Below are positions 1,687 through 27,502 of a DNA stretch of 30,968 nucleotides, one piece after another. The stretch's first letter is position 1. Every line of letters begins with the position of its first letter. The stretch is from Candidatus Zixiibacteriota bacterium (GTDB lineage: Bacteria; Zixibacteria; MSB-5A5; GN15; PGXB01): assembly GCA_900498245.1 (NCBI GenBank), contig LS998015.1, positions 2,989,091-3,020,058 of the forward strand, read 5' to 3'. Position numbers and translations under genes: made by a program. The notes beneath the pieces are model-generated. The model saw only the letters and a list, made by a program, of their open reading frames with translations, had not been told where the DNA came from and did no database searches.

Positions 1687-3624
1687 ATGATTATGCGGTT
1701 AATGGTCTTAGTTGCGCTAATTTTTCTCCTCACATTCCTCACCGCATCGGCGGCCCCGCCAATCCCCGAAAACCTTCAAATTTCAACCACATCATATCAG
1801 CTCCAGAACGAGGAACAGGTCTGGTTCTGCCCCACTGACAGCAATGTGCTGGTCGCCAACTGGCGCGATTTCCGTCTCGGATACCGCCAAATTGGGGTGG
1901 GACGGTCGGTTTTTGGCGGCGCTTTCTGGATCGACTCTCTGGTGACGCTGGATTTTCAGAAATTCGACCGCCAATCCGATCCGACCCTGACTGTTGACGC
2001 CGCCGGCAATTTCTATATGAGTTACCTTGACTATCAGTCAACCGTCGTGACTCAGGACGATTCGTCCTATATCACTTTCATCGTATCGACCGACAAAGGG
2101 GCTTCCTGGGTGGGACCGTACACGGTCGAGGGGACAATCGGTCACTATTTCGAAGATAAGCAGTTTATTACCGCCGATCGAAGCGCCGCGAGCCCGTACT
2201 TGGGGAATGTCTATGTGGCCTGGGCGCGGTTTCCGAATCCCAATAAAATAATGTTTGCCCGCTCCACGAATGGAGCCGTGAGTTTCGATCCTCCCCTGGT
2301 GGTGGGACCAGTGACAAGTTTCAGCTATCCCTGCGGGTCGGGATCTTTTGAAGGGGGGCAGTTTGCCAATCCCTTTACCGGCGCCGATGGTTCGGTTTAT
2401 GTCACCTGGACGGCGATCGGGATGAGCGACACGGTCAATTGTATCGGTAACTACTGTCTGAAACTGGTGAAATCGACCGATGGCGGAGTGACATTCACGG
2501 CACCATCGATTATCCGATTTACATTCGGAAATTGGGGGTTTGTCGACGGAGGTATCGACGTTTATAACGAACCGGTGGCGGTTGGCGATGTTACCGGCGG
2601 GCTGTTCGACGGTAACCTGTATATCGAATATGCCAATATGGATACCTCCAATACCGCCTATTTGGATTATAATATAGAATTTATACGCTCCACGGATGGG
2701 GGCGCTCATTGGACGGAACCGATATATGTCAATGACGACTATACCGGTCCCGGGGCGATGTTCGATCAATTTCATCCCTGGCTATTTGTTAATGAAGAGG
2801 GCTTACTGGTGACCATTTTTTATGACCAACGCACCGATCCGAACCATTACAAGTTCGATGTTTTCGCGGCCTATTCGTTCGACGGCGGTGAGACGTTCAC
2901 GACTAATCATAGAATTTCGGATGTTTCCATCAATCCGGGTCTTCTGGCCAAGGAGATCCCGGGAATCACACCCAACACCAACCCGCTACTGGTGACGCTG
3001 AGCCCGATGGCGGGGAAGATCGCAGAGTATATCGGGGTGACCGCTTTTCATGATAAAGTAATGGCGGTCTGGACCGATACCCGCAACGGAAATCAGGATG
3101 TTTTCGGCGCCAACTGGCATATTCCGCTTCTGGAGCCGCGTCTTCTTTCGCCGGTCGGGAGTGACTCGGTTCCAACCGGACTCCCCACTTTGCGCTGGGC
3201 GACAGGATGGAAGAACAATGACGATCGGTATCGCGCCGAAATCGCATCCGATTCCCTGTTCACCGATATTCTTTTCTCGGGCGTCTCGGACACGACATTT
3301 GTCACGTTATCGACCCCTGACCTGAACAAAGGGTATTATTTCTGGCGGGCCAAGGCGTTCAAAATTTCGACGGATGATTCCTCGGATTATTCCGTCGTGC
3401 AGAAGTTTTATGTGAACAAATTCATGTGCGGCGACGCCAATGCGAATGGGAGCGTAAATATACTTGACGTATCATACATCATAAATTATTTGTATCGCAG
3501 CGGTCCGCCGCCGGTTCCCCTTCAGTCGTCCGATGTCAACAACAGCGGGGGAACGAATATTCTCGATGTATCATACCTGATCAATTTTCTCTATAAAAAC
3601 GGACCGGCTCTTAATTGCCCTTGA
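1687..3624 (+). CDS. Secreted BNR/sialidase-like propeller protein with C-terminal type I dockerin
   Basis: The 645-residue protein starts with a signal peptide (hydrophobic residues about 3-20, likely cleavage after ASA near residue 22). Five Asp-box (BNR) motifs of the S-x-D/N-x-G-x-x-F/W type occur near residues 134, 192, 263, 335 and 397, which indicates a sialidase-like beta-propeller. A fibronectin-III-like segment follows at about 485-577. Residues 581-645 form a dockerin with two calcium loops (D583/N585/N587/D594 and D617/N619/S621/D628). No sialidase catalytic Arg triad or FRIP motif was recognised, so an enzymatic role is not claimed. The protein is probably surface-displayed or part of a cohesin-dockerin assembly, but no cohesin is in the window. 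It converges with cheB across a shared terminator. Confidence 0.88.
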   Translation: MIMRLMVLVALIFLLTFLTASAAPPIPENLQISTTSYQLQNEEQVWFCPTDSNVLVANWRDFRLGYRQIGVGRSVFGGAFWIDSLVTLDFQKFDRQSDPTLTVDAAGNFYMSYLDYQSTVVTQDDSSYITFIVSTDKGASWVGPYTVEGTIGHYFEDKQFITADRSAASPYLGNVYVAWARFPNPNKIMFARSTNGAVSFDPPLVVGPVTSFSYPCGSGSFEGGQFANPFTGADGSVYVTWTAIGMSDTVNCIGNYCLKLVKSTDGGVTFTAPSIIRFTFGNWGFVDGGIDVYNEPVAVGDVTGGLFDGNLYIEYANMDTSNTAYLDYNIEFIRSTDGGAHWTEPIYVNDDYTGPGAMFDQFHPWLFVNEEGLLVTIFYDQRTDPNHYKFDVFAAYSFDGGETFTTNHRISDVSINPGLLAKEIPGITPNTNPLLVTLSPMAGKIAEYIGVTAFHDKVMAVWTDTRNGNQDVFGANWHIPLLEPRLLSPVGSDSVPTGLPTLRWATGWKNNDDRYRAEIASDSLFTDILFSGVSDTTFVTLSTPDLNKGYYFWRAKAFKISTDDSSDYSVVQKFYVNKFMCGDANANGSVNILDVSYIINYLYRSGPPPVPLQSSDVNNSGGTNILDVSYLINFLYKNGPALNCP

Positions 3625-3701: not shown

Positions 3702-5188
<1,487 letters not shown>

Positions 5189-5196
<8 letters not shown>

Positions 5197-5575
5197 TGAC
5201 GGCCTCCAGAATTCGGTCGATTATTTCTCCAATGGCCTCCGGCGTGAAGGGTTTGCGGATATACTCGCGAATACCCTTTTCCTTCAGTTCCTCAATTCTG
5301 GTCGTACTCCCGTCGGTGGAAACCACGATCACGGGAATATCCTTGAGCATCCCGTCTTTGGCCATGGCATTAATCAATTCGATGCCGGACATGACCGGCA
5401 TATTGAGATCGGTCAGGACCAGATCGATCCAATTCGCCTGAAGACACTCCAGCGCTTCCTGGCCATTGGCGGCCTCGAAGACCTGGTTGATCTGAAGTTT
5501 GGTCAGCCCGAGTGTTTTCACCAAAATGGACCTTATCGTTTTAGAATCATCGACAACAAGAATATTGTATGCCAT
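5189..5575 (-). CDS. CheY-like single-domain response regulator (second copy)
   Basis: The 128-residue protein is a stand-alone receiver domain without an output domain. It has the acidic pair D9/D10, phospho-acceptor D56 in LTDLNMP, S86/T87 at the switch position (VVSTDG) and K108 in RKPF, so it should be phosphorylatable. In chemotaxis, such proteins carry the signal from CheA-P to the motor, or act as phosphate sinks. It lies 4 nt after the HDOD gene and overlaps the downstream cheX-like gene by 8 bp. Which of the two CheY-type proteins in this operon contacts the motor cannot be told from sequence. Confidence 0.93.
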
Positions 5576-5579
5576 AATT

Positions 5580-6452
5580 TCATCTCCTGACGGCTTCGGT
5601 GGACGGAATTTCCTTAAACAAGTTTTCCATTTGCTCCATCATCAGTATGGTTTGACTGATGGCCAGTTCAATAGTCGTCACCGAAAGACTCAATCTATTT
5701 ATAGAATTTTCATTCAATCGATATTGCAGATCGTCCCGTCCCAGCCCGAAGCCCTCCATGAGGCAGACGGAGTCGGCGACATGAACAATATCAAGGGAGG
5801 GATCGATTTGCGGGGCGGAATCGGGATTATGGTGCCAGCGAATGCTATTGACGATCAATTCAGGGAAATGCCAGTGTTCGGAGATAATGGCCCCGACCTC
5901 GGAATGGTCGATTCCCAGAATCTCAAGTTCGGCCTCTTCGAAAGTCAATTTTCGTTGATTGACAAGTTCCTGGATTTCATCAAATTTCCCCGCCACGAAT
6001 TCGCTCATGGCGATTTTGCCGATGTCGTGAAGGAGGCCGGCGGTATAGATCGTGCCGGCATCGCGAATCCCCGACAAGGTACAGAGAGACTCGGACATGA
6101 TCGCCACCGCGGTGGAATGCCGCCAGAGTCCTTCGCTGGACAGATCGTATCCCGGTGCGGGCTTCTTCAGATTGGAATATATCAGCGATGACAGGGCAAT
6201 TTGATAAATCCATTTCGTTCCCAGACGAAATGTGGCTTCGGCCAGCGAGGTCACCGGGCGGTTGAACCCGAGAAAAGAGGAGTTGGCCGCTTTAAGGACA
6301 TTGGCCGTCAGGGCCGGGTCAATTTGAATAATACGGGATATTTCCTTGGCGGCCGACTCGGGATCGCCGAGCACAGCCAGGAGCCTGTTGACCATCACGG
6401 GAAGAGTCGGAAAGGATGAAATCCCGGATATAATTTTCTCTTTGGTTTTCAT
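5580..6452 (-). CDS. HDOD-domain signalling protein
   Basis: The 290-residue protein is a single HDOD domain (about residues 8-205) with a C-terminal helical extension. The segment FPTLPVMVNRLLAVL near the N-terminus and IIQIDPALTANVLKAANSS around 41-59 are characteristic. An HD pair is visible at H142/D143 in LLHDIGK. HDOD proteins are HD-GYP-like regulators that usually lack the full catalytic set and work through protein contacts in c-di-GMP or motility circuits. The start overlaps the cheD stop by 4 bp (ATGA), and a GGGGAG ribosome binding site lies inside cheD, so it is translationally coupled to adaptation genes. Confidence 0.9.
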   Translation of the reverse strand: MKTKEKIISGISSFPTLPVMVNRLLAVLGDPESAAKEISRIIQIDPALTANVLKAANSSFLGFNRPVTSLAEATFRLGTKWIYQIALSSLIYSNLKKPAPGYDLSSEGLWRHSTAVAIMSESLCTLSGIRDAGTIYTAGLLHDIGKIAMSEFVAGKFDEIQELVNQRKLTFEEAELEILGIDHSEVGAIISEHWHFPELIVNSIRWHHNPDSAPQIDPSLDIVHVADSVCLMEGFGLGRDDLQYRLNENSINRLSLSVTTIELAISQTILMMEQMENLFKEIPSTEAVRR

Positions 6453-6928
6453 AATTCGTTCTCCCCATGTGACGATTTAATCGTGACCAGACCGGTATCC
6501 AATTCAAACCGCATGGTTCGCGACAGCATCCCGCCCACATCACTGGAATTTATCAAAATATTGTTTTTCCATAAGATTTTCCTGAGAATCAGGAAATTAC
6601 GCTCGCCGATATTGAAGACTTTATTCTGATCCATCAACTGCGAACCGCCGGCGGCTTTGACTATAAGGCGGCTCTTGGCGGCTCCCCTGGCAATAATACC
6701 TTTCAAAAGCAACGGGACACCGGTATCGGCAAACATACCGGGTTTGGCCTCGGCTTTTTCGGGAGATATTTTTGACAGGGGGAGCATGTAGTGGATCATT
6801 CCGCCCACTTTAGCGATCGGATCGTAGGCCGTCAAACCAATGCAGGAGCCAAGCGAATATGTGATCAGCACATCGCCAGGATTGGAAGAAACCTGAATGT
6901 CCGATATTCCAACAACTATCAAGGACAT
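6449..6928 (-). CDS. cheD: CheD, chemoreceptor glutamine deamidase
   Basis: CheD deamidates specific glutamines of chemoreceptors and in many bacteria also binds CheC to tune receptor activity. The 159-residue protein has the normal family length. The catalytic Cys is C29 in SLGSCIG and the His is H46 in GGMIHYMLP; a conserved Thr (T69) in the FADTG segment is also present. It lies 3 nt after the cheR stop and overlaps the HDOD start by 4 bp. No CheC is encoded here. The CheX proteins are the nearest relatives, so the usual CheC-CheD regulation may be missing or altered. Confidence 0.95.
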   Translation of the reverse strand: MSLIVVGISDIQVSSNPGDVLITYSLGSCIGLTAYDPIAKVGGMIHYMLPLSKISPEKAEAKPGMFADTGVPLLLKGIIARGAAKSRLIVKAAGGSQLMDQNKVFNIGERNFLILRKILWKNNILINSSDVGGMLSRTMRFELDTGLVTIKSSHGENEL

Positions 6929-6931
6929 ATA

Positions 6932-7735
6932 CTATACCTTTAAATATATAGAAGGCCTGACACACCGAAAACCGTCGGACATACCGGTGATGCTTTCCGC
7001 ATGGCCGACCAATAAATAGCCCCCTGGTTTCAATAGCCTATTGAATTCATGAATCAAGCCGGAACGGACCCGGCGGTCAAAGTAAATCATGACATTGCGG
7101 CAGAAAATCATATCCAGTTGTTTCCTGATGGGGTACGGCGGGGTCGAAAGATTGAATTGCCGGAAGATAATCATATCCCGCAGGCGGTCGTTGACCCTAT
7201 AAATATGCCGCCCATTTTGACCGTGGCGGGTGAAATATTTCGTCCGCAGATGTTTGGGAACCGGCGCCACTTTGTCTTCGGTATATTCTCCGGTCACGGA
7301 AATCTCCAGGACCCGCGATGAAATATCGGTCGCAAGAATCTTTATATCGGCCGGCCGGTTACCTATGGTTTCAAGGATTTCAATGGCCATAGTGTACGGT
7401 TCCTCGCCGGTCGAAGAAGCGGCCGACCAGAAACGAAGAGCTTTCCTGCCGGACGCCATCCAGGAATCAATGGACTCGCGCATAAAGTCAAAATGGGACG
7501 GCTCCCGGTAGAAGGAAGTAACATTGGTGGAAATCGCCTCAAGCATCTGCTGAATTTCTTCGCCCGAGGTATCTTCCACGGCGTAATGATAATATTCGGC
7601 ATAGTCGGCAATATTAAGGAAGCGCATCCGCTTGGCTATTCGAGCCCGGACCAGCGCCTGTTTGTTGTCGCCCAGAGAGATGCCACTGCGCTCGTAAACA
7701 AGATCTCTAATCTTATTGAATGTTGTCTCTTTCAT
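6932..7735 (-). CDS. cheR: CheR, chemoreceptor glutamate methyltransferase
   Basis: CheR uses S-adenosylmethionine to methylate receptor glutamates, opposing CheB. The 267-residue protein has the all-helical CheR N domain (about 1-65), the TNVTSFYRE motif (70-78), the SAM-binding motif ending in SSTGEEPYTMA (107-117) and the FCRNVMIYFD motif near the C-terminal third, all expected of the family. It has no TPR extension. The start codon follows a weak AGGCG ribosome site. The single receptor in this operon lacks an obvious C-terminal CheR-tethering pentapeptide, so docking is probably through the receptor body. Confidence 0.96.
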   Translation of the reverse strand: MKETTFNKIRDLVYERSGISLGDNKQALVRARIAKRMRFLNIADYAEYYHYAVEDTSGEEIQQMLEAISTNVTSFYREPSHFDFMRESIDSWMASGRKALRFWSAASSTGEEPYTMAIEILETIGNRPADIKILATDISSRVLEISVTGEYTEDKVAPVPKHLRTKYFTRHGQNGRHIYRVNDRLRDMIIFRQFNLSTPPYPIRKQLDMIFCRNVMIYFDRRVRSGLIHEFNRLLKPGGYLLVGHAESITGMSDGFRCVRPSIYLKV

Positions 7736-7795
7736 ATTATCGCCTGTCGTACGCTCCGAACAATGTTAATCCATTGCACCCGGTCTCAACATTTG

Positions 7796-8158
7796 TCATG
7801 ACTGCAGAAATTTTTCCAACTTCGATTGGATATCCTTGGGACTGAACGGCTTTATCAGGTAATCATTCGCCCCGGATTTTATCGCCTCGATGACCTTTTC
7901 TTTTTCGGCCTCGGTCGTGACCATCACGACGGGAGTCTTGATACTGGCGGAACGAATCTTTTTGACGGCTTCGATCCCGGTCATGGTCGGCATGTTCCAA
8001 TCCATCAAAACAAGACCGATATCGGCCTGTTTGCCCAGAGTCTCAATCGCCTCCAACCCGTTAGAGGCCTCGATGATATCGTTGACGCCGCACTTTTTTA
8101 GAGCCCCTATGATGATTTTCCTCATTATCTGAGAATCATCGACTATAAGCACTTGCAT
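7796..8158 (-). CDS. cheY: CheY chemotaxis response regulator
   Basis: With the start at 8158 this is a 120-residue single receiver domain beginning MQVLIVDDSQ. That start is chosen because AAGGAGG lies 7 nt upstream; the frame stays open further upstream to 8233, but the extra 25 residues are low-complexity and have no ribosome site. Key residues are D7/D8, phospho-acceptor D53 in LMDWNMP, T81 (MVTT) and K103 in IKPF. The DWNMP signature is typical of true chemotaxis CheY. It overlaps the end of the upstream cheX by 23 bp, pairing regulator and phosphatase in one coupled unit. Confidence 0.95.
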   Translation of the reverse strand: MQVLIVDDSQIMRKIIIGALKKCGVNDIIEASNGLEAIETLGKQADIGLVLMDWNMPTMTGIEAVKKIRSASIKTPVVMVTTEAEKEKVIEAIKSGANDYLIKPFSPKDIQSKLEKFLQS

Positions 8159-8639
8159 GCTCTGCCTCCTTCTCGGAAACGACGGCCGGTTTGAAGCAGA
8201 CGGACACGGAAAAGGCGCCGTAAGCGCTGTCAAACGGCACGGTCAACCAGACGGTGTTGGACAGGTTGTTCAGTTTATATATGCTGCCGCGGACGACGGT
8301 CGGCAGGCTGAGGGAGATGGAATGTCCCCTAAATTTGGCCTTGGCGTTTCCGGCCACGATATTGACCAATTCCCCAACGCCATCAATTATGGACGAATCG
8401 ACCCCGCGAAATTCCGTTCCTACCATCTTGCCGATAACGGACAGAGCAGTCTTCACCGGCAGGCGAAGGGCCACGATACCCTGGGCGGTGCCGGACAACC
8501 CGATGACACCGATTATATCCGGGGCCCCTTTGTCGTCAATATCGACGGTCGGAGTTCCGGTCTCCACTTTGCTGTCAAGCATATTCTGAAAAACTTCCGA
8601 GACCGATTCGATAAAGGGATTGATGTTTTCAGCTTTCAT
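8136..8639 (-). CDS. cheX: CheX, CheY-P phosphatase
   Basis: The 167-residue protein begins MKAENINPFIESVSEVFQNM, a very typical CheX N-terminus, and contains the GTAQGIVALRLP strand and the catalytic helix with E90 and N93 in GELVNIVAGNAK. CheX dimers dephosphorylate CheY-P and replace CheZ in many non-enteric bacteria. The start is preceded by GGAG at 6 nt and overlaps the stop of the FapA-like gene by 4 bp (ATGA). The gene runs into cheY, so enzyme and substrate are made together. Confidence 0.92.
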   Translation of the reverse strand: MKAENINPFIESVSEVFQNMLDSKVETGTPTVDIDDKGAPDIIGVIGLSGTAQGIVALRLPVKTALSVIGKMVGTEFRGVDSSIIDGVGELVNIVAGNAKAKFRGHSISLSLPTVVRGSIYKLNNLSNTVWLTVPFDSAYGAFSVSVCFKPAVVSEKEAEHASAYSR

Positions 8640-10133: not shown

Positions 10134-11792
10134 TTAGAATTCGGCGACCTCTTCTTTTTCCAGCGGTATCACTTCTTCCGCTTTAGTCGTCTTTTTGGCA
10201 CTTTTGGCGGGTACCGCCTGACGGTGCATTTTTTCATTGTGGTGTTCAGCCATATTATGAATTCGTTCGCGGACCTGCCGCGTTTTGCTGACGCCCGACT
10301 GAGGCATTGTCGATGCGGTACGATTGACTGATGGATTGTAGGTATCGACTTTCTGCCGGGCGGTCGAGCCATCAACGATCATAGTCAGTTCGCGGACGAT
10401 GGCCTGAAGCTGCTGGGCCTGAGCCGAGAGTTCTTCACTAGCGGAGGCCGACTCCTCGGCATTGGCGGCGTTCTGCTGAGTCACCTGATCCATCTGCGAC
10501 ACGGCCGCATTGACCTGTTCGATTCCCTGGGCCTGTTCGTTACTGGCCGCGGAAACCTCGGCAATGAGATCGGTGACTTTCTTTACGGAAGTCGTCACGT
10601 CATTGAGAATGCCGATAAATTCCTCGGTGGCGCGGACGCCGTTCTCGGCATTTTTCTGAGAACCTTCAATCAAGGAACTGGTATTCTTGGCGGCTTCAGC
10701 GGAACGCTGGGCCAGATTGCGGACCTCTTCGGCGACGACGGCGAATCCTTTGCCGGCTTCACCGGCGCGAGCCGCTTCGACCGCCGCATTCAGGGCCAGG
10801 AGATTGGTCTGGAAGGCAATTTCATCAATGACCTTGATGATTTTGGCCGTCTCGTCAGACGAATGCTTAATTTCCTGGATGGCACCGGACATTCCCTCCA
10901 TTGCCCGGGCGCCTTTATCGGCGGCAGCGCTGGCTTCGGCCGCAAGGATGTTGGCCTGCTTGGCATTTTCGGCGTTCTGCTTAGTCATGCTCGACATCTC
11001 TTCGAGAGCCGATGAGGTCTCCTGCAGAGACGAGGCCTGTTCGGTTGTAGCCTCCGCCAGCGACTGGCTGGCCGAGGAGATATGCTCGGAGGCCGAACCG
11101 ACCTGTTCCCCGCCGCTTTCCAGAGAGGCGATAGCGCGATTGACCGGCCGCGTAATCGATTTGGCCATGAGCCACGATATCAGCAGACTGGCCACGACAA
11201 TAACGGCGGCGACGCTGAAAATGGTATAGAAGAAACTGGACATTTCGGCCTGCACGTCGTCGAGATAAATACCCGAACCGATGACCCAGCCCCAGTCGCT
11301 CTGCAATTTCACGTAAGAAATCTTGGGCACCGGTTTGCTGAAACCCGGCTTGGGCCAGCTGTAATCGACGAAACCGGCCCCCTTGCTGCGGCAGATATCG
11401 GCAAATTCGACAAATATCCGCTTACCGCTCGGGTCGGCATACTGGGTTTGGTCGGTGTTGTCCATTTCCGTCTTTATGGGATGCATGAGGACACGGGCCT
11501 GAAGATCGTTTATCCAATAATACTCGTTGTCACCGTAGCGCATGTTCTTGATTACGGCTTTGGCTTTCTCTTTGGCGTCCTCGACGGTCATGGTCCCGTT
11601 TTTGCTCATTTTGACAAATTCATCGACGACACCCCAGGCCGCTTCGACGACCTGCTGTGTCTTGACATATTTGGCATCAAACATCCTGGCTTTGAATTTG
11701 GGATAAATCCAGCTCAGAACGAGTGCGAAAGCCACGACGATAGATATTCCCAACAGCATAATCCGAGTTGAGAGTTTAAATTTATTCAGCAT
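10134..11792 (-). CDS. Methyl-accepting chemotaxis protein with single Cache sensor
   Basis: The 552-residue receptor has a first membrane helix (about 12-30), a periplasmic sCache_2-type sensor (about 35-185; motif [19 protein letters not shown] at 87-105 and [14 protein letters not shown] at 167-180) and a second membrane helix (about 188-209). The cytoplasmic signalling helix bundle follows, with its hairpin tip near [18 protein letters not shown] (333-350). Only the first HAMP helix ([10 protein letters not shown]) is visible before the signalling helices start, so the HAMP appears truncated. The last five residues lack the aromatic pattern of a CheR/CheB tether. Cache domains of this type bind small organic acids in known cases; the ligand here is unknown. 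A GGAGGG site precedes the start. Confidence 0.95.
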
Positions 11793-11868: not shown

Positions 11869-13047
11869 TCAGAACCCCAGAATGAATGATGATTGGACGC
11901 GAAGGTCCTTGACCGGTTCAGCATTCTTATAATTGGTCACCCAATTGGACAGTTCCAGCCCGACCGTAACCTGAGGTACCAACTGATAACGGACATTACC
12001 ATAGACGCAACTGTTGCGGGAGCGGCCGCTGGCGAAATCGGTGTTATCGGGATCATCCATACCGTAACCGGCCGACAATTGCGTTTTGGGCGCGGCTTGA
12101 ACCCAAGCCGAAACCCAGCCGCCGAAATCGGCGGAGCCGTTGACTTCGCTGCTTCTCAGGATATTTCCGAAGTAACTTCCCAGATTGGAACCCTTGTGAA
12201 CCTCGCCGGAGAAACCATAATTCTTGGTAGGATTGATCAAAAGATGCCCGGCAACGACCCAGCTTTTATATTTCTGAACATGGCCCTGATTGGTTTCGGC
12301 CTGCAGTCTTCCGGTCAGCGCCGAAACACCGCCGCGGATCTGTCCGCCGGAGGCCAAAGTATGCTTGATATCAATCAAACCCTGGAAGGAAGGAATAGCG
12401 GCATCGGTACCGTCATCGGCACCCTCGGCCGTTTCGCCCAGAGCCAGAGTAAAGGTCGGAGTTAAATCGGTTCCGATGGTCCGGAACACGCCGGAGGCGA
12501 TGGTAAAATCGGTCGTTTTACCCGATTTGAAATTGTACCAGACGCTTAACTGCGGGCGGCGATAGCCGATATTGCCGACGCCCCAGAGAACCGAATAATT
12601 GAGGGTTGACGGATTCAGAGGAGAAATAAGATCCCAGGTCTGACCGGCGATCATTTTCCAGTGGTTCGACTCGACCGAGAAATAAGCATGACGCAACTGC
12701 AGCATGGCTTTGTTTTCGGCAATAGTAGCGCCGGTAATGCTGGCATAAAGGTCGAATTCCAATTTACCGCTTACTTTCACATTATTATAATTGACCCCGG
12801 TGGCGGTGATGCCGAAGCGGGTCTCATTGGCCGTCATGTTAAATTGATTGTCATGACCCGGCTGTGTTTCCGGCTGTACCCACATCACGAAGTTCCCGTG
12901 ACTGGTCATGTTACGGTCATACGCCCCATCGAACTTGAAATAGCCGTACCATTTCAGATCGACCGACGGTTTGTCGCCGGCCAGAACCGATCCGGCCATA
13001 ATTATGAGGGCGATGGCTATTAGGGACCAAACTATTCTTCTGGTCAT
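11869..13047 (-). CDS. Outer-membrane beta-barrel porin, DcaP-like
   Basis: With the start at 13047 the protein has 392 residues. This start is chosen because GGGAGG lies 6 nt upstream and it begins directly with a signal peptide (MTRRIVWSL, hydrophobic core, cleavage near VLAGD); the frame is open to 13134 without a ribosome site. The mature part opens with LKWYGYFKFDGAYD and continues as alternating amphipathic strands, including the AGQTWDLISPLNPSTLN segment reminiscent of DcaP-like trimeric porins. It ends in Phe (FILGF), the usual barrel-assembly signal. It should form a solute channel in the outer membrane. It is embedded between cheW and the receptor, with about 80-nt gaps on both sides, which is unusual for a porin. 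Confidence 0.8.
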   Translation of the reverse strand: MTRRIVWSLIAIALIIMAGSVLAGDKPSVDLKWYGYFKFDGAYDRNMTSHGNFVMWVQPETQPGHDNQFNMTANETRFGITATGVNYNNVKVSGKLEFDLYASITGATIAENKAMLQLRHAYFSVESNHWKMIAGQTWDLISPLNPSTLNYSVLWGVGNIGYRRPQLSVWYNFKSGKTTDFTIASGVFRTIGTDLTPTFTLALGETAEGADDGTDAAIPSFQGLIDIKHTLASGGQIRGGVSALTGRLQAETNQGHVQKYKSWVVAGHLLINPTKNYGFSGEVHKGSNLGSYFGNILRSSEVNGSADFGGWVSAWVQAAPKTQLSAGYGMDDPDNTDFASGRSRNSCVYGNVRYQLVPQVTVGLELSNWVTNYKNAEPVKDLRVQSSFILGF

Positions 13048-13130
13048 TGTAACCTCCCAATACATTATTGCGTTATCCCCTTTTTCATATTCACTTTCCG
13101 GCCGCTTGTACCGACCGCGTTTCAGTACTT

Positions 13131-13688
13131 TCAAATAACTGATTCCGTGACAGCGGCAGTATTTTCGGCCGCGACGTTTTCCAGCATCGAGACATCGACA
13201 TTCGTCAAGACCCGGTCGATATCGAGCAAAATCTTGACCGTGTTTCGGACTTTTCCGATCCCGAGGATGAAGCGAGTATCGACCCCGACACCAAAAACCG
13301 GAGTGTCCTCGATCTCGTTGGCCTGAATGTCCAGCACTTCCGAAACGGCATCAACCAGAATACCCATCAGAGTAGAGCCGTGCTCACCTTCGACATCGAC
13401 GACAATGATACATGTTTCTTCGGTGTCTTCCTTGCCATCCATATCGAATTTCAGGCGCAGGTCAACCACGGGAATGACCTTGCCGCGCAAATTGATGACG
13501 CCCCGGATATATTGAGGGGTGCGCGGAACTTTGGTGATATCCATTAATCCGATAATTTCCCGGACCTTCAGAATTTCGAGGCCGTATTCCTCAGCCGCCA
13601 GTCTGAAAGTGAGATATTTGCCAGCCCGTTCGGCCGCCTTCCCATTGGCCACTTTGTTATTTTCACTGCTTTTTCTCACATCGTTCAT
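13131..13688 (-). CDS. cheW: CheW, chemotaxis coupling protein
   Basis: CheW bridges receptors and CheA in the signalling array. The 185-residue protein is a single CheW domain (about 24-165), with the expected LTFRLAAEEYGLEILKVREI, VPRTPQYIRGVINLRGKVIPVVDLR-type blocks and the LGIGKV segment. Unstructured tails of about 20 residues flank the domain. A strong GGAGGAG ribosome site precedes ATG 13688. It follows cheA by a 39-nt gap and precedes the porin by 83 nt. Confidence 0.96.
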   Translation of the reverse strand: MNDVRKSSENNKVANGKAAERAGKYLTFRLAAEEYGLEILKVREIIGLMDITKVPRTPQYIRGVINLRGKVIPVVDLRLKFDMDGKEDTEETCIIVVDVEGEHGSTLMGILVDAVSEVLDIQANEIEDTPVFGVGVDTRFILGIGKVRNTVKILLDIDRVLTNVDVSMLENVAAENTAAVTESVI

Positions 13689-13727: not shown

Positions 13728-16133
13728 TCAACTCGCCAAAACTGTCTCCGGAGTGCAGGGATCGTTCTCCGTCAGTTTGCATTTATCGTTAGTTTTATTT
13801 TTCGCTTCAACTTCGGGGTCGGAGGCCTCGGTTTCCCGAACCGCCACCGGCCGCAAGGATTGTGCGGCCAGGGCGACCACCCCGCCGACATCTATTATGA
13901 GTCCGACATTGCCATCCGACAAAATGGCGCCGCCGGCCACCCATTTCTGTCCGCGGAAAATCGGACCAAGACTCTTAATGACAGTTTGTCTCTGGCCCAG
14001 CAGTTTATCGACGACCAGTCCCACCCGTTTGGAACCGTCTTCGACCACCACAACGGTCTTATCTCTGGATATCCCCTGGACCGGTTTGAACTCAAATAAT
14101 TCATTGACCCGAATCAGGGGAAGCAGATCGCCGCGCAGATCGATCATTTCGGCACGCCCGGTGACGGTGAATATCATCTCTTTAGTCAGACTCAGGGATT
14201 CCACGATAGAGAGGGTCGGGATGATCAATTTTTCATTCTCGACACTGACCAGCATACCATCGATGATGGCAAGCGTCAGGGGCAATTTCATCAGGAACAG
14301 AGTGCCTTTGCCCGAGATCGACTGAATTTCCAGATGTCCCCGCATCGCCTCGATATTCTTGCGGACCACATCCATTCCGACCCCGCGGCCGGAAATATCA
14401 GTGACTTTCTCGGCAGTGGAAAATCCGGGAAGCATGATCAGGCCGTAGATTTCTTTATCGGTCAATTCTTTGTTGCCTTCGATTAATCCTTTTTCCCGGG
14501 CTTTGGCCAGAATTTTGTCCTTATTAAGGCCGCGGCCGTCATCCTCGATATCAAAATAGATATTGCCCCCTTTATGATAGGCACGAACGGTTATTTTGCC
14601 GTTACGCGATTTTCCGGAGTGAACTCGATCCGCCGGCGTTTCGATTCCATGATCCACGGAGTTCCTGATCATATGCATCAGGGGATCACCGATATTTTCA
14701 ACAATACTGCGGTCGACTTCGGTATCTTCTCCGGAGAGAATCAGTTCGATTTCTTTGCCCGATTTTTTGGTGAGATCTCGGACGGCACGAGCCAGTTTCT
14801 GGAAAGTGGGACGGACCGGGACCAGTCGCATCGCCATTCCCATCTCCTGCAATTCGCGCGTAATCTTATTCAAGTGGGAGATATTGCGGGCGATTTTAGG
14901 CGAAACGATGCCCAGAATCTCCTCATCCTGGCCGACCATAGATTCGGCGATCACGAGTTCGCCGATAGTATCGACCAGACGATCCAACCGTTCCGTGTCG
15001 ATTTTCACGACTTCCTTGACGGCCCCGGTGCCGGTTTTCTCCTTGATCACCTGCTGTTGATTTCGCAGGGCCTGAGCGACCACCTTGGCCGGCACGATAC
15101 CCTGATTTACCAGAGTTTCTCCCAGTTTTTCATCGGTGCTTTTTTTCTTGGTCAGGGCCTCATCGATTTGAGGTTGAGAAACCGCACCCATTTGGATCAG
15201 GATATCACCCACGCGCTCGGGACGCGGTTCGGACGGAACCTGGTCGGGATGCTCGATGAGTTGTCTTAATTTGGCCAGGACGGGGACGGTGATGGAAGTG
15301 CCATCGAATGTTCCTCCATTCTTGAGAGCCATTTCGGTCCCCTCGAGGAGTTTTCTCAGAACGTCGATAGCATCAAATATAGTGTCGGCGATATGACCGG
15401 TGATGGTCAGAGTTCCCTTCCGTCCGAAATCAAGCAGAGTTTCCGACTCATGAGCCAGAACAGAAACAGGTTTGAGATCCAAAAAGCCGGCGGCGCCTTT
15501 GATGGTATGGAAACTGCGGAAGATGGCGTCGATGGCCGCTTGATTCCGGCAATCGGTCTCGAGATCCATCAGCATCTGTTCGGCAGTGGCGCAATGCTCG
15601 CGGGCCTCATTAATGAAATCGCCCAAAAGCGAGGTGTCGGCCGATTCCAGATTTATAATGAGGGATTGGTCCCGGGCTTCATCTTTGCGCGGCGCCTGAG
15701 GCGCACTCGCAGGCCGCATTTTAGCAGGTTTGTCCGGCTTGTTTTCGGCAGAGGCCGGGGATTCCGGAGAGAGAGCGACATCGGTTTTTGGCTTCATGGC
15801 CTCACCGGGCAACGAAAGATTCAGTTCTTTCGGAAACAATACTTCGGAGAGTTGACGATGATCCCGAACCAGCCCCTGCAGGGCCGCCACGGCGTCGTTG
15901 AGAACATCAATTATATGTCCCCGATCACCTTCGGGAATTTCCCCAAGGACAATTTTTTCTACAAGGTCGGCCAGTTTGCGGCAAGCCTCTCCAACCGGAC
16001 CTGACGTTTCCCCGGCTTCTTTGGCGGCGTTCAGGAAATCATCATGCAACCGGGCCAGCGACGGCAAATCGTCAAGACTGACCATGACAAGGTCGATCGC
16101 GGCCGTCTCAATCAAGGTTTCGAGTTCTTTCAT
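13728..16133 (-). CDS. cheA: CheA histidine kinase with MshEN-like insert in place of P2
   Basis: The 801-residue kinase phosphorylates CheY and CheB. Its domains in order are: an unassigned helical N-terminal region (1-100); a Pro/Ala-rich linker (110-155); Hpt/P1 (about 160-265) with phosphorylated H209 in FRSFHTIKGAAG; an MshEN-like segment (307-359); P3 dimerisation (about 371-435); the ATPase domain (about 437-618; N box with N491 in IRNSVDHGIE, G1 DDGRGL at 531-536, G2 GRGVGMDVV at 582-590); and P5/CheW-like (about 622-757), followed by a 44-residue acidic tail. No ordinary P2 domain is recognisable. The start lacks a strong ribosome site. It is the first gene of the 12.4-kb operon. Confidence 0.96.
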   Translation of the reverse strand: MKELETLIETAAIDLVMVSLDDLPSLARLHDDFLNAAKEAGETSGPVGEACRKLADLVEKIVLGEIPEGDRGHIIDVLNDAVAALQGLVRDHRQLSEVLFPKELNLSLPGEAMKPKTDVALSPESPASAENKPDKPAKMRPASAPQAPRKDEARDQSLIINLESADTSLLGDFINEAREHCATAEQMLMDLETDCRNQAAIDAIFRSFHTIKGAAGFLDLKPVSVLAHESETLLDFGRKGTLTITGHIADTIFDAIDVLRKLLEGTEMALKNGGTFDGTSITVPVLAKLRQLIEHPDQVPSEPRPERVGDILIQMGAVSQPQIDEALTKKKSTDEKLGETLVNQGIVPAKVVAQALRNQQQVIKEKTGTGAVKEVVKIDTERLDRLVDTIGELVIAESMVGQDEEILGIVSPKIARNISHLNKITRELQEMGMAMRLVPVRPTFQKLARAVRDLTKKSGKEIELILSGEDTEVDRSIVENIGDPLMHMIRNSVDHGIETPADRVHSGKSRNGKITVRAYHKGGNIYFDIEDDGRGLNKDKILAKAREKGLIEGNKELTDKEIYGLIMLPGFSTAEKVTDISGRGVGMDVVRKNIEAMRGHLEIQSISGKGTLFLMKLPLTLAIIDGMLVSVENEKLIIPTLSIVESLSLTKEMIFTVTGRAEMIDLRGDLLPLIRVNELFEFKPVQGISRDKTVVVVEDGSKRVGLVVDKLLGQRQTVIKSLGPIFRGQKWVAGGAILSDGNVGLIIDVGGVVALAAQSLRPVAVRETEASDPEVEAKNKTNDKCKLTENDPCTPETVLAS
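15057..15215 (-). other. MshEN-like tandem motif inside CheA (residues 307-359)
   Basis: Residues 307-330 and 336-359 are two 24-residue units separated by exactly 5 residues. Both follow the pattern R/K-x-G-x-x-L-hydrophobic-x-x-G-hydrophobic-V-x(7-8)-A-L. That matches the MshEN (GspE N-terminal) family, whose 24-5-24 arrangement binds c-di-GMP. Deviations from the usual consensus are V308 for Leu after the first Arg and K330 for the final Gln. Binding is inferred, not shown. Confidence 0.7.
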
Positions 16134-26644: not shown

Positions 26645-27502
26645 ATGAGATATGTCTTAATGGCTTCGCTGGGAATTATTTTGGTTCCTATGATGATCTC
26701 ATTTGCAAGTGTATGTGGTGACGCCAACAGAAATGGTGTTATCAATATTCTTGATGTCAGTCATGTCATTAATTATCTTTATAAATCGGGGTCGCCGCCT
26801 ATTCCGCCGCAATCGGCCGATGTGAATTTATCAGGAAGCGTGAATATACTAGATGCAACATATTTAATAGATTACCTGTATAGATCGGGCCCGGCACCAT
26901 TATGCCATATGGTGTCAGACATTGATGGCAATGCATACTTTACAGTTACCATTGGCACGCAGGTGTGGATGGCGGAGAATTTGCAGGTGACCCATTATAG
27001 TAATGGCGATGCCATTCCCTATATAACAGACGCAATCGCCTGGTCGAACTTAACAACCGGAGCCTACAGCGACTTTGATAATAATATAAATAATGCTGCG
27101 ACCTATGGCAGGCTTTATAATTGGTATGCGGCAGCCGACAGCCGGAATATTGCCCCATCAGGCTGGCATGTGCCAAATGAATCCGATTGGTTGACATTGA
27201 TAAATTATCTTGGGGGATTCGGCTATGCTGGTTGGAAAATGAAAGAAGCCGGAACAATGCATTGGTACAGTCCTAACACAGGGGCTAATAATGAGAGTGG
27301 TTTCTCCGTGTTACCTGCCGGCTGTCGTTATTTCGATGGAGTGGATTTCCTTAGTATGGGTTACAGCGCATTCATTTGGTCCGCGACGGATCACACCGCT
27401 GACTTAGCATGGAACTACTATTTCTTTTGGCAAGACCCAGGTGTCAGCCACGGAGTAGATAATAAGCACTACGGTTTCTCGATTCGATGTGTGAAGGATT
27501 GA
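26645..27502 (+). CDS. Secreted protein: N-terminal dockerin plus FISUMP (Fib_succ_major) domain
   Basis: The 285-residue protein has a signal peptide (1-22), then directly a type I dockerin (24-87) with calcium loops CGDANRNGVINILD and ADVNLSGSVNILD. Residues about 92-284 match the Fibrobacter succinogenes major paralogous (FISUMP) domain: DIDGNAYFTVTIGTQVWMAE-type opening, YGRLYNWYAA (154-163), GWHVP (173-177), GFSVLPAGCRY (219-229), WSAT (245-248) and the terminal IRCVKD. FISUMP domains are found in surface proteins of unknown function. Dockerin before FISUMP is an uncommon order. The gene is bracketed by two identical palindromic repeats and lies in AT-richer DNA. Confidence 0.88.
   Translation: MRYVLMASLGIILVPMMISFASVCGDANRNGVINILDVSHVINYLYKSGSPPIPPQSADVNLSGSVNILDATYLIDYLYRSGPAPLCHMVSDIDGNAYFTVTIGTQVWMAENLQVTHYSNGDAIPYITDAIAWSNLTTGAYSDFDNNINNAATYGRLYNWYAAADSRNIAPSGWHVPNESDWLTLINYLGGFGYAGWKMKEAGTMHWYSPNTGANNESGFSVLPAGCRYFDGVDFLSMGYSAFIWSATDHTADLAWNYYFFWQDPGVSHGVDNKHYGFSIRCVKD

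Follow-up and report, generated by a model that had tools for sequence, protein, structure and literature searches.

The known links between c-di-GMP and chemotaxis act around the kinase CheA, at the motor, CheR, CheY-like proteins and receptors; a ligand site within CheA would put the signal at the core kinase itself, and, through an MshEN domain there, the kinase that steers the cell could respond directly to the signal to "stop and stick". Among the closest described systems are MshE (structure 5htl) and the GSPII-B domain of Thermus PilF, which share with the protein described here two half-sites of 24 residues and a four-helix fold; isolated VcMshEN_N bound c-di-GMP at 0.35 µM (Wang et al. 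2016, PMC5013675). The same work states, with reference to its Supplementary Table 4, that MshEN occurs together with CheA, CheX and other domains, so that the combination of MshEN and CheA in one protein, as found here, is already on record and less novel than the first-pass annotation of this DNA had implied. The surprise is limited accordingly, and the new question is the regulatory function of the predicted site. No functional test of the MshEN-CheA fusions is described in the available part of that paper, literature text searches found no paper testing MshEN in CheA, and the MshEN domain is absent from the main text of a survey of CheA architectures published in 2023.

We analysed a stretch of 30,968 nucleotides (the window; contig LS998015.1 of Candidatus Zixiibacteriota bacterium, assembly GCA_900498245.1), which contains the only cheA found in this genome; a genome search gave no second copy, and a single cheA makes for a simple testable case. 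The encoded protein has the core in common with E. coli CheA (P1-P2-P3-P4-P5), namely Hpt with its phospho-accepting His, P3, P4 and P5, all of which are present as expected of a CheA histidine kinase. Unlike the E. coli protein, it has no P2, carries MshEN ahead of P3 and possesses an additional N-terminal helical bundle:

13728..16133, minus strand: cheA, 801 aa
15819..16133, minus strand: N-terminal four-helix bundle of CheA, residues 1-105, predicted, of no known family
15354..15629, minus strand: Hpt (P1), residues 169-260, phospho-acceptor H209
15144..15215, minus strand: MshEN unit 1, residues 307-330 (NF053729, motif, PDB sequence match, contact conservation)
15129..15143, minus strand: spacer of 5 residues, 331-335, KSTDE
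15057..15128, minus strand: MshEN unit 2, residues 336-359 (NF053729, motif), its last helix predicted to continue to residue 367
14829..15014, minus strand: P3 dimerisation domain (H-kinase_dim), residues 374-435
14274..14687, minus strand: P4, HATPase_c, residues 483-620
13875..14258, minus strand: P5, CheW-like domain, residues 626-753

The phospho-acceptor H209 lies within the motif SFHTIKG. The N-terminal bundle (pLDDT about 84) is followed by a linker predicted to be disordered (residues 111-155), and it contains a His (H30) in an LH[DE]xF-like motif, which is invariant in 13 relatives. It is not detectably a further Hpt: a profile comparison by hhalign with the Hpt domains of these CheAs gave a probability of 6.8, and a search of PDB sequences yielded a V-ATPase subunit as the best match (E 0.004) and no family assignment.

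The region 15057-15215, for which an MshEN-type c-di-GMP motif had been claimed from the letters alone, corresponds exactly to CheA residues 307-359 (15215-15057 on the minus strand). Two units of 24 residues of the type RLGxx(L/V/I)(L/V/I)xxG..., RVGDILIQMGAVSQPQIDEALTKK (unit 1) and KLGETLVNQGIVPAKVVAQALRNQ (unit 2), are indeed separated by 5 residues, and both fit the relaxed 24-residue motif (Wang et al. 2016). In 20,000 shuffles of the CheA protein, one unit arose in 14, and the pair with 5-residue spacing in none. The NCBIfam profile NF053729 ('c-di-GMP_motif') matches residues 307-359 with 53 bits (curated cut-off 38 bits), covering model positions 1-53 of 53 (E 2.2e-14), and it is likewise matched by all 17 aligned CheA orthologues at E<=0.01. 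Conserved Arg, Gly, Leu and the second Gln are shared with MshE and PilF, and the 5-residue spacer is that of MshE; in contrast to both, CheA lacks the MshEN_C subdomain, has Lys at the first Gln, and houses the domain inside a histidine kinase instead of at the N-terminus of an ATPase. Pfam PF05157, the family named MshEN, gives no match over its gathering score in CheA. This should not be taken as counter-evidence, because PF05157 covers the C-terminal subdomain: in one ATPase of the same genome (C1, minus strand), the PF05157 match (836019-836279) and the NF053729 match (836286-836441) adjoin and do not overlap. PF05157 is therefore a model of the MshEN_C part, which has no counterpart in CheA, and since it describes the stretch behind the c-di-GMP motif, Pfam-based annotation overlooks stand-alone MshEN_N domains such as the one in CheA.

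Homology to structurally characterised receptors was found at the level of both sequence and predicted fold. With phmmer, the MshEN part of CheA retrieved from the PDB both Thermus PilF (6f8l) at E 5e-15 and the c-di-GMP-bound MshE of V. cholerae (5htl) at E 5e-7, while a profile of the orthologues reached E 1e-9 for 5htl and 2e-21 for PilF among PDB sequences. The isolated domain, modelled by AlphaFold2 on 17 orthologues (pLDDT 76), is predicted to form four helices (3-10, 15-24, 32-39 and 44-62). Its best fold matches in the PDB are all c-di-GMP-bound MshE or PilF, and superposition on them, a check that the first-pass annotation had proposed for the MshEN-c-di-GMP complex, gives an rmsd of 1.7-1.9 Å over 56 residues (TM 0.72; Z 8.9 for 5htl). 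For this small helical domain Foldseek reports weak E values (0.018-0.03), yet a probability of 1.00.

Adding 298 to the MshE residue number gives the corresponding residue of CheA, and the ligand-contact and turn positions given in the available part of Wang et al. (2016, PMC5013675) can so be compared one by one. Nine of the 14 are identical (R9, G11, G18, L29, L39, G40, G47, L58, Q61) and four conservatively replaced (L10 by V308, L25 by I323, R38 by K336, L54 by V352); the sole non-conservative position is Q32, which is K330 in CheA, and most close relatives likewise have a basic residue (Lys or Arg) there. Conservation of the contacts in orthologues, on which the claim of ligand binding had been made to depend, exceeds that of the remaining MshEN columns (0.61 bits compared with 1.47 bits in 17 orthologues; p 0.0004 by permutation), with R307, G309, G338, L356 and Q359 invariant, although the conservation of these columns may partly serve the fold. 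The altered Gln does not appear disqualifying, because single Gln mutants of PilF retain weakened binding (KD 0.95 and 0.46 µM; wild type 6 nM) and only the Gln double mutant lost it (PMC11731258), bearing in mind that the published exchanges are Gln to Glu, whereas K330 is Lys. In the same protein, Lys at the Arg position of the first motif bound more tightly than Arg (PMC11731258). Profile match, homology to 5htl, predicted fold and the conservation of ligand contacts thus support the MshEN identity, and, judged from sequence, residues 307-359 are likely to bind c-di-GMP, since PilF deprived of one Gln binds more weakly but still binds; the affinity would probably be sub-micromolar to micromolar.

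How widely this arrangement occurs was surveyed within the phylum, where 65 of 132 genomes contain a CheA match. In 22 of these 65 the profile is matched from the MshEN part onwards, and one further genome (G123) has the domain at a greater distance upstream of P3. Most of the remaining CheAs, of ~600 residues, have a poorly conserved linker in place of MshEN. The named relatives are Candidatus Zixiibacteriota MAGs. Phylogenetic analysis of P3-P5 groups all 17 MshEN CheAs in a single clade (support 100/98), enclosed in a larger one (96/99) together with variants of altered spacer length and plasmid-borne CheAs of Aeromonas and Pseudomonas.

Among the variants, Gly47 is replaced by Asn in L019 and L020; L047-L049 have lost Gly47 and have spacers of 7 residues; and L023 and L024 combine a 3-residue spacer with loss of the tenth-position Gly from both units. 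With such losses and spacers of 7 or 3 residues, binding may have been lost in parts of the lineage, which leaves room for non-binding descendants in the CheA family. The site apparently decays in all of these proteins, and the last helix remains conserved. This helix (VPAK.VA.ALR.Q) is strongly kept, including R357, for which no contact in MshEN has been reported; this suggests a second role apart from the ligand, perhaps touching P3. One could argue that nucleotide binding is gone from the CheA studied here as well, and that its MshEN fold survives ahead of P3 because it serves as a docking module or spaces the neighbouring domains. K330 in place of Gln32, the lost Gly47 and variable spacers of some relatives, and the constraint on VPAK.VA.ALR beyond the ligand contacts, with its invariant R357, would fit such a loss, for which XpsE provides a non-binding precedent among the secretion ATPases (PMC5013675, available part). 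However, XpsE dropped many contacts together, according to the same part of that paper, whereas in CheA just one of the 14 motif positions carries a non-conservative change, and neither of the polar contacts, R307 and Q359, varies among the 17 orthologues; we consider the loss of binding rather unlikely.

The plasmid CheAs of Aeromonas sp. BC14 (L069, WP_168966300.1) and Pseudomonas sp. HR96 (L070, WP_320579546.1) are annotated in the database just as 'chemotaxis protein CheA'. As in our protein, tandem MshEN-like units adjoin P3; they differ in that a domain of ~90 residues comes first and in that the spacers are longer, and they score 31 and 28 bits with NF053729, both below the cut-off of 38. 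The ~90-residue domain had no meaningful match among PDB sequences and Pfam, and these comparisons give no proof that it is a P2.

These proteins bear on the question of P2. The motif had been described as occupying the place where P2 should be. Its location between Hpt with H209 (169-260) and P3 (374-435) stands, and so does the absence of P2: no Pfam P2 model matches CheA, and the fewer than 50 residues between Hpt and the MshEN units are too short for a P2 domain. The notion of replacement holds for the position alone; the units directly precede P3. In one survey, more than half of CheAs are without P2 (PMC10782961). A functional substitution, in which the units would dock CheY or CheB, has their position between Hpt and P3 and the missing P2 in its favour; against it, all similarity is with nucleotide-binding MshEN domains, many CheAs function without P2, and in Aeromonas and Pseudomonas the tandem follows the ~90-residue domain and thus also occurs in CheAs whose P2 position is not empty, which together make a docking role highly improbable. 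Since the units adjoin P3 here and follow a further domain of ~90 residues in the gammaproteobacterial relatives, we conclude that they are a P3-proximal module and not a stand-in for P2.

For such a module we propose the following mechanism. Residues 307-359 are an MshEN_N domain of four short predicted helices, whose two 24-residue half-sites would hold one c-di-GMP immediately ahead of the P3 dimerisation helices. Closing of the half-sites on the ligand would move the last MshEN helix, directed to P3, and this shift would alter either autophosphorylation or the access of Hpt to P4 and to CheY/CheB, so that the cellular level of c-di-GMP would set the gain or output of the single chemotaxis system. 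Taken as a whole, from the receptor domain through the ligand-driven helix shift to altered kinase or Hpt output, we regard this explanation as somewhat probable. In the full-length model, the last MshEN helix spans 349-367, and residues 364-380, between MshEN and P3, are of low confidence and probably flexible; for this reason the coupling of MshEN to the kinase output is something we can only infer. Direct gating of kinase activity or phosphotransfer by c-di-GMP, in a CheA subfamily of Zixibacteria and, in variant form, of some Gammaproteobacteria, we consider an evenly balanced proposition; if true, it would constitute a direct allosteric link from c-di-GMP to the core chemotaxis kinase. 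The same flexible linker on the P3 side would also agree with a module which binds c-di-GMP but, instead of catalysis, influences where CheA is located (for example at the cell pole) or how arrays are assembled, the more so as MshEN is reused across many unrelated proteins (PMC5013675, available part). On the contrary, the domain immediately precedes P3 throughout this CheA subfamily, as should be expected if it is coupled to the core of the kinase, and we judge an effect restricted to localisation or assembly to be distinctly unlikely.

The genome encodes two GGDEF proteins with intact GGEEF/GGDEF sites, one partial GGDEF match and six HD-GYP-type matches, so that c-di-GMP very probably is both made and degraded. 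A search of the genome for EAL domains gave none, and breakdown seems to be left to HD-GYP proteins alone. Three PilZ and five NF053729 matches were also found, and the presence of flhA makes a flagellar apparatus likely. As the ligand, 3',3'-cGAMP or some other cyclic dinucleotide might be considered, given that one section of Wang et al. (2016, PMC5013675) is headed 'MshEN can also bind cGAMP'; the canonical GGDEF proteins with intact motifs in the genome speak against it, and we regard this option as very improbable. The rest of the chemotaxis genes in the window lie on the same strand as cheA:

13131..13688, minus strand: cheW, adjoining cheA
10134..11792, minus strand: chemoreceptor with a single Cache domain and MCPsignal
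3702..8639, minus strand: remaining chemotaxis cluster of cheX, cheY, cheR, cheD, a gene for an HDOD protein, cheY, cheX and cheB

Between cheW and the chemoreceptor gene, an open reading frame of 421 residues (11869-13134, minus strand) has no Pfam match. The two cheX-like phosphatase genes of the cluster (4699-5196 and 8136-8639, minus strand) each have their own adjoining cheY. Elsewhere in the window, two dockerin type I proteins are encoded on the plus strand (1687-3624 and 26645-27502), one of them with a Fib_succ_major domain.
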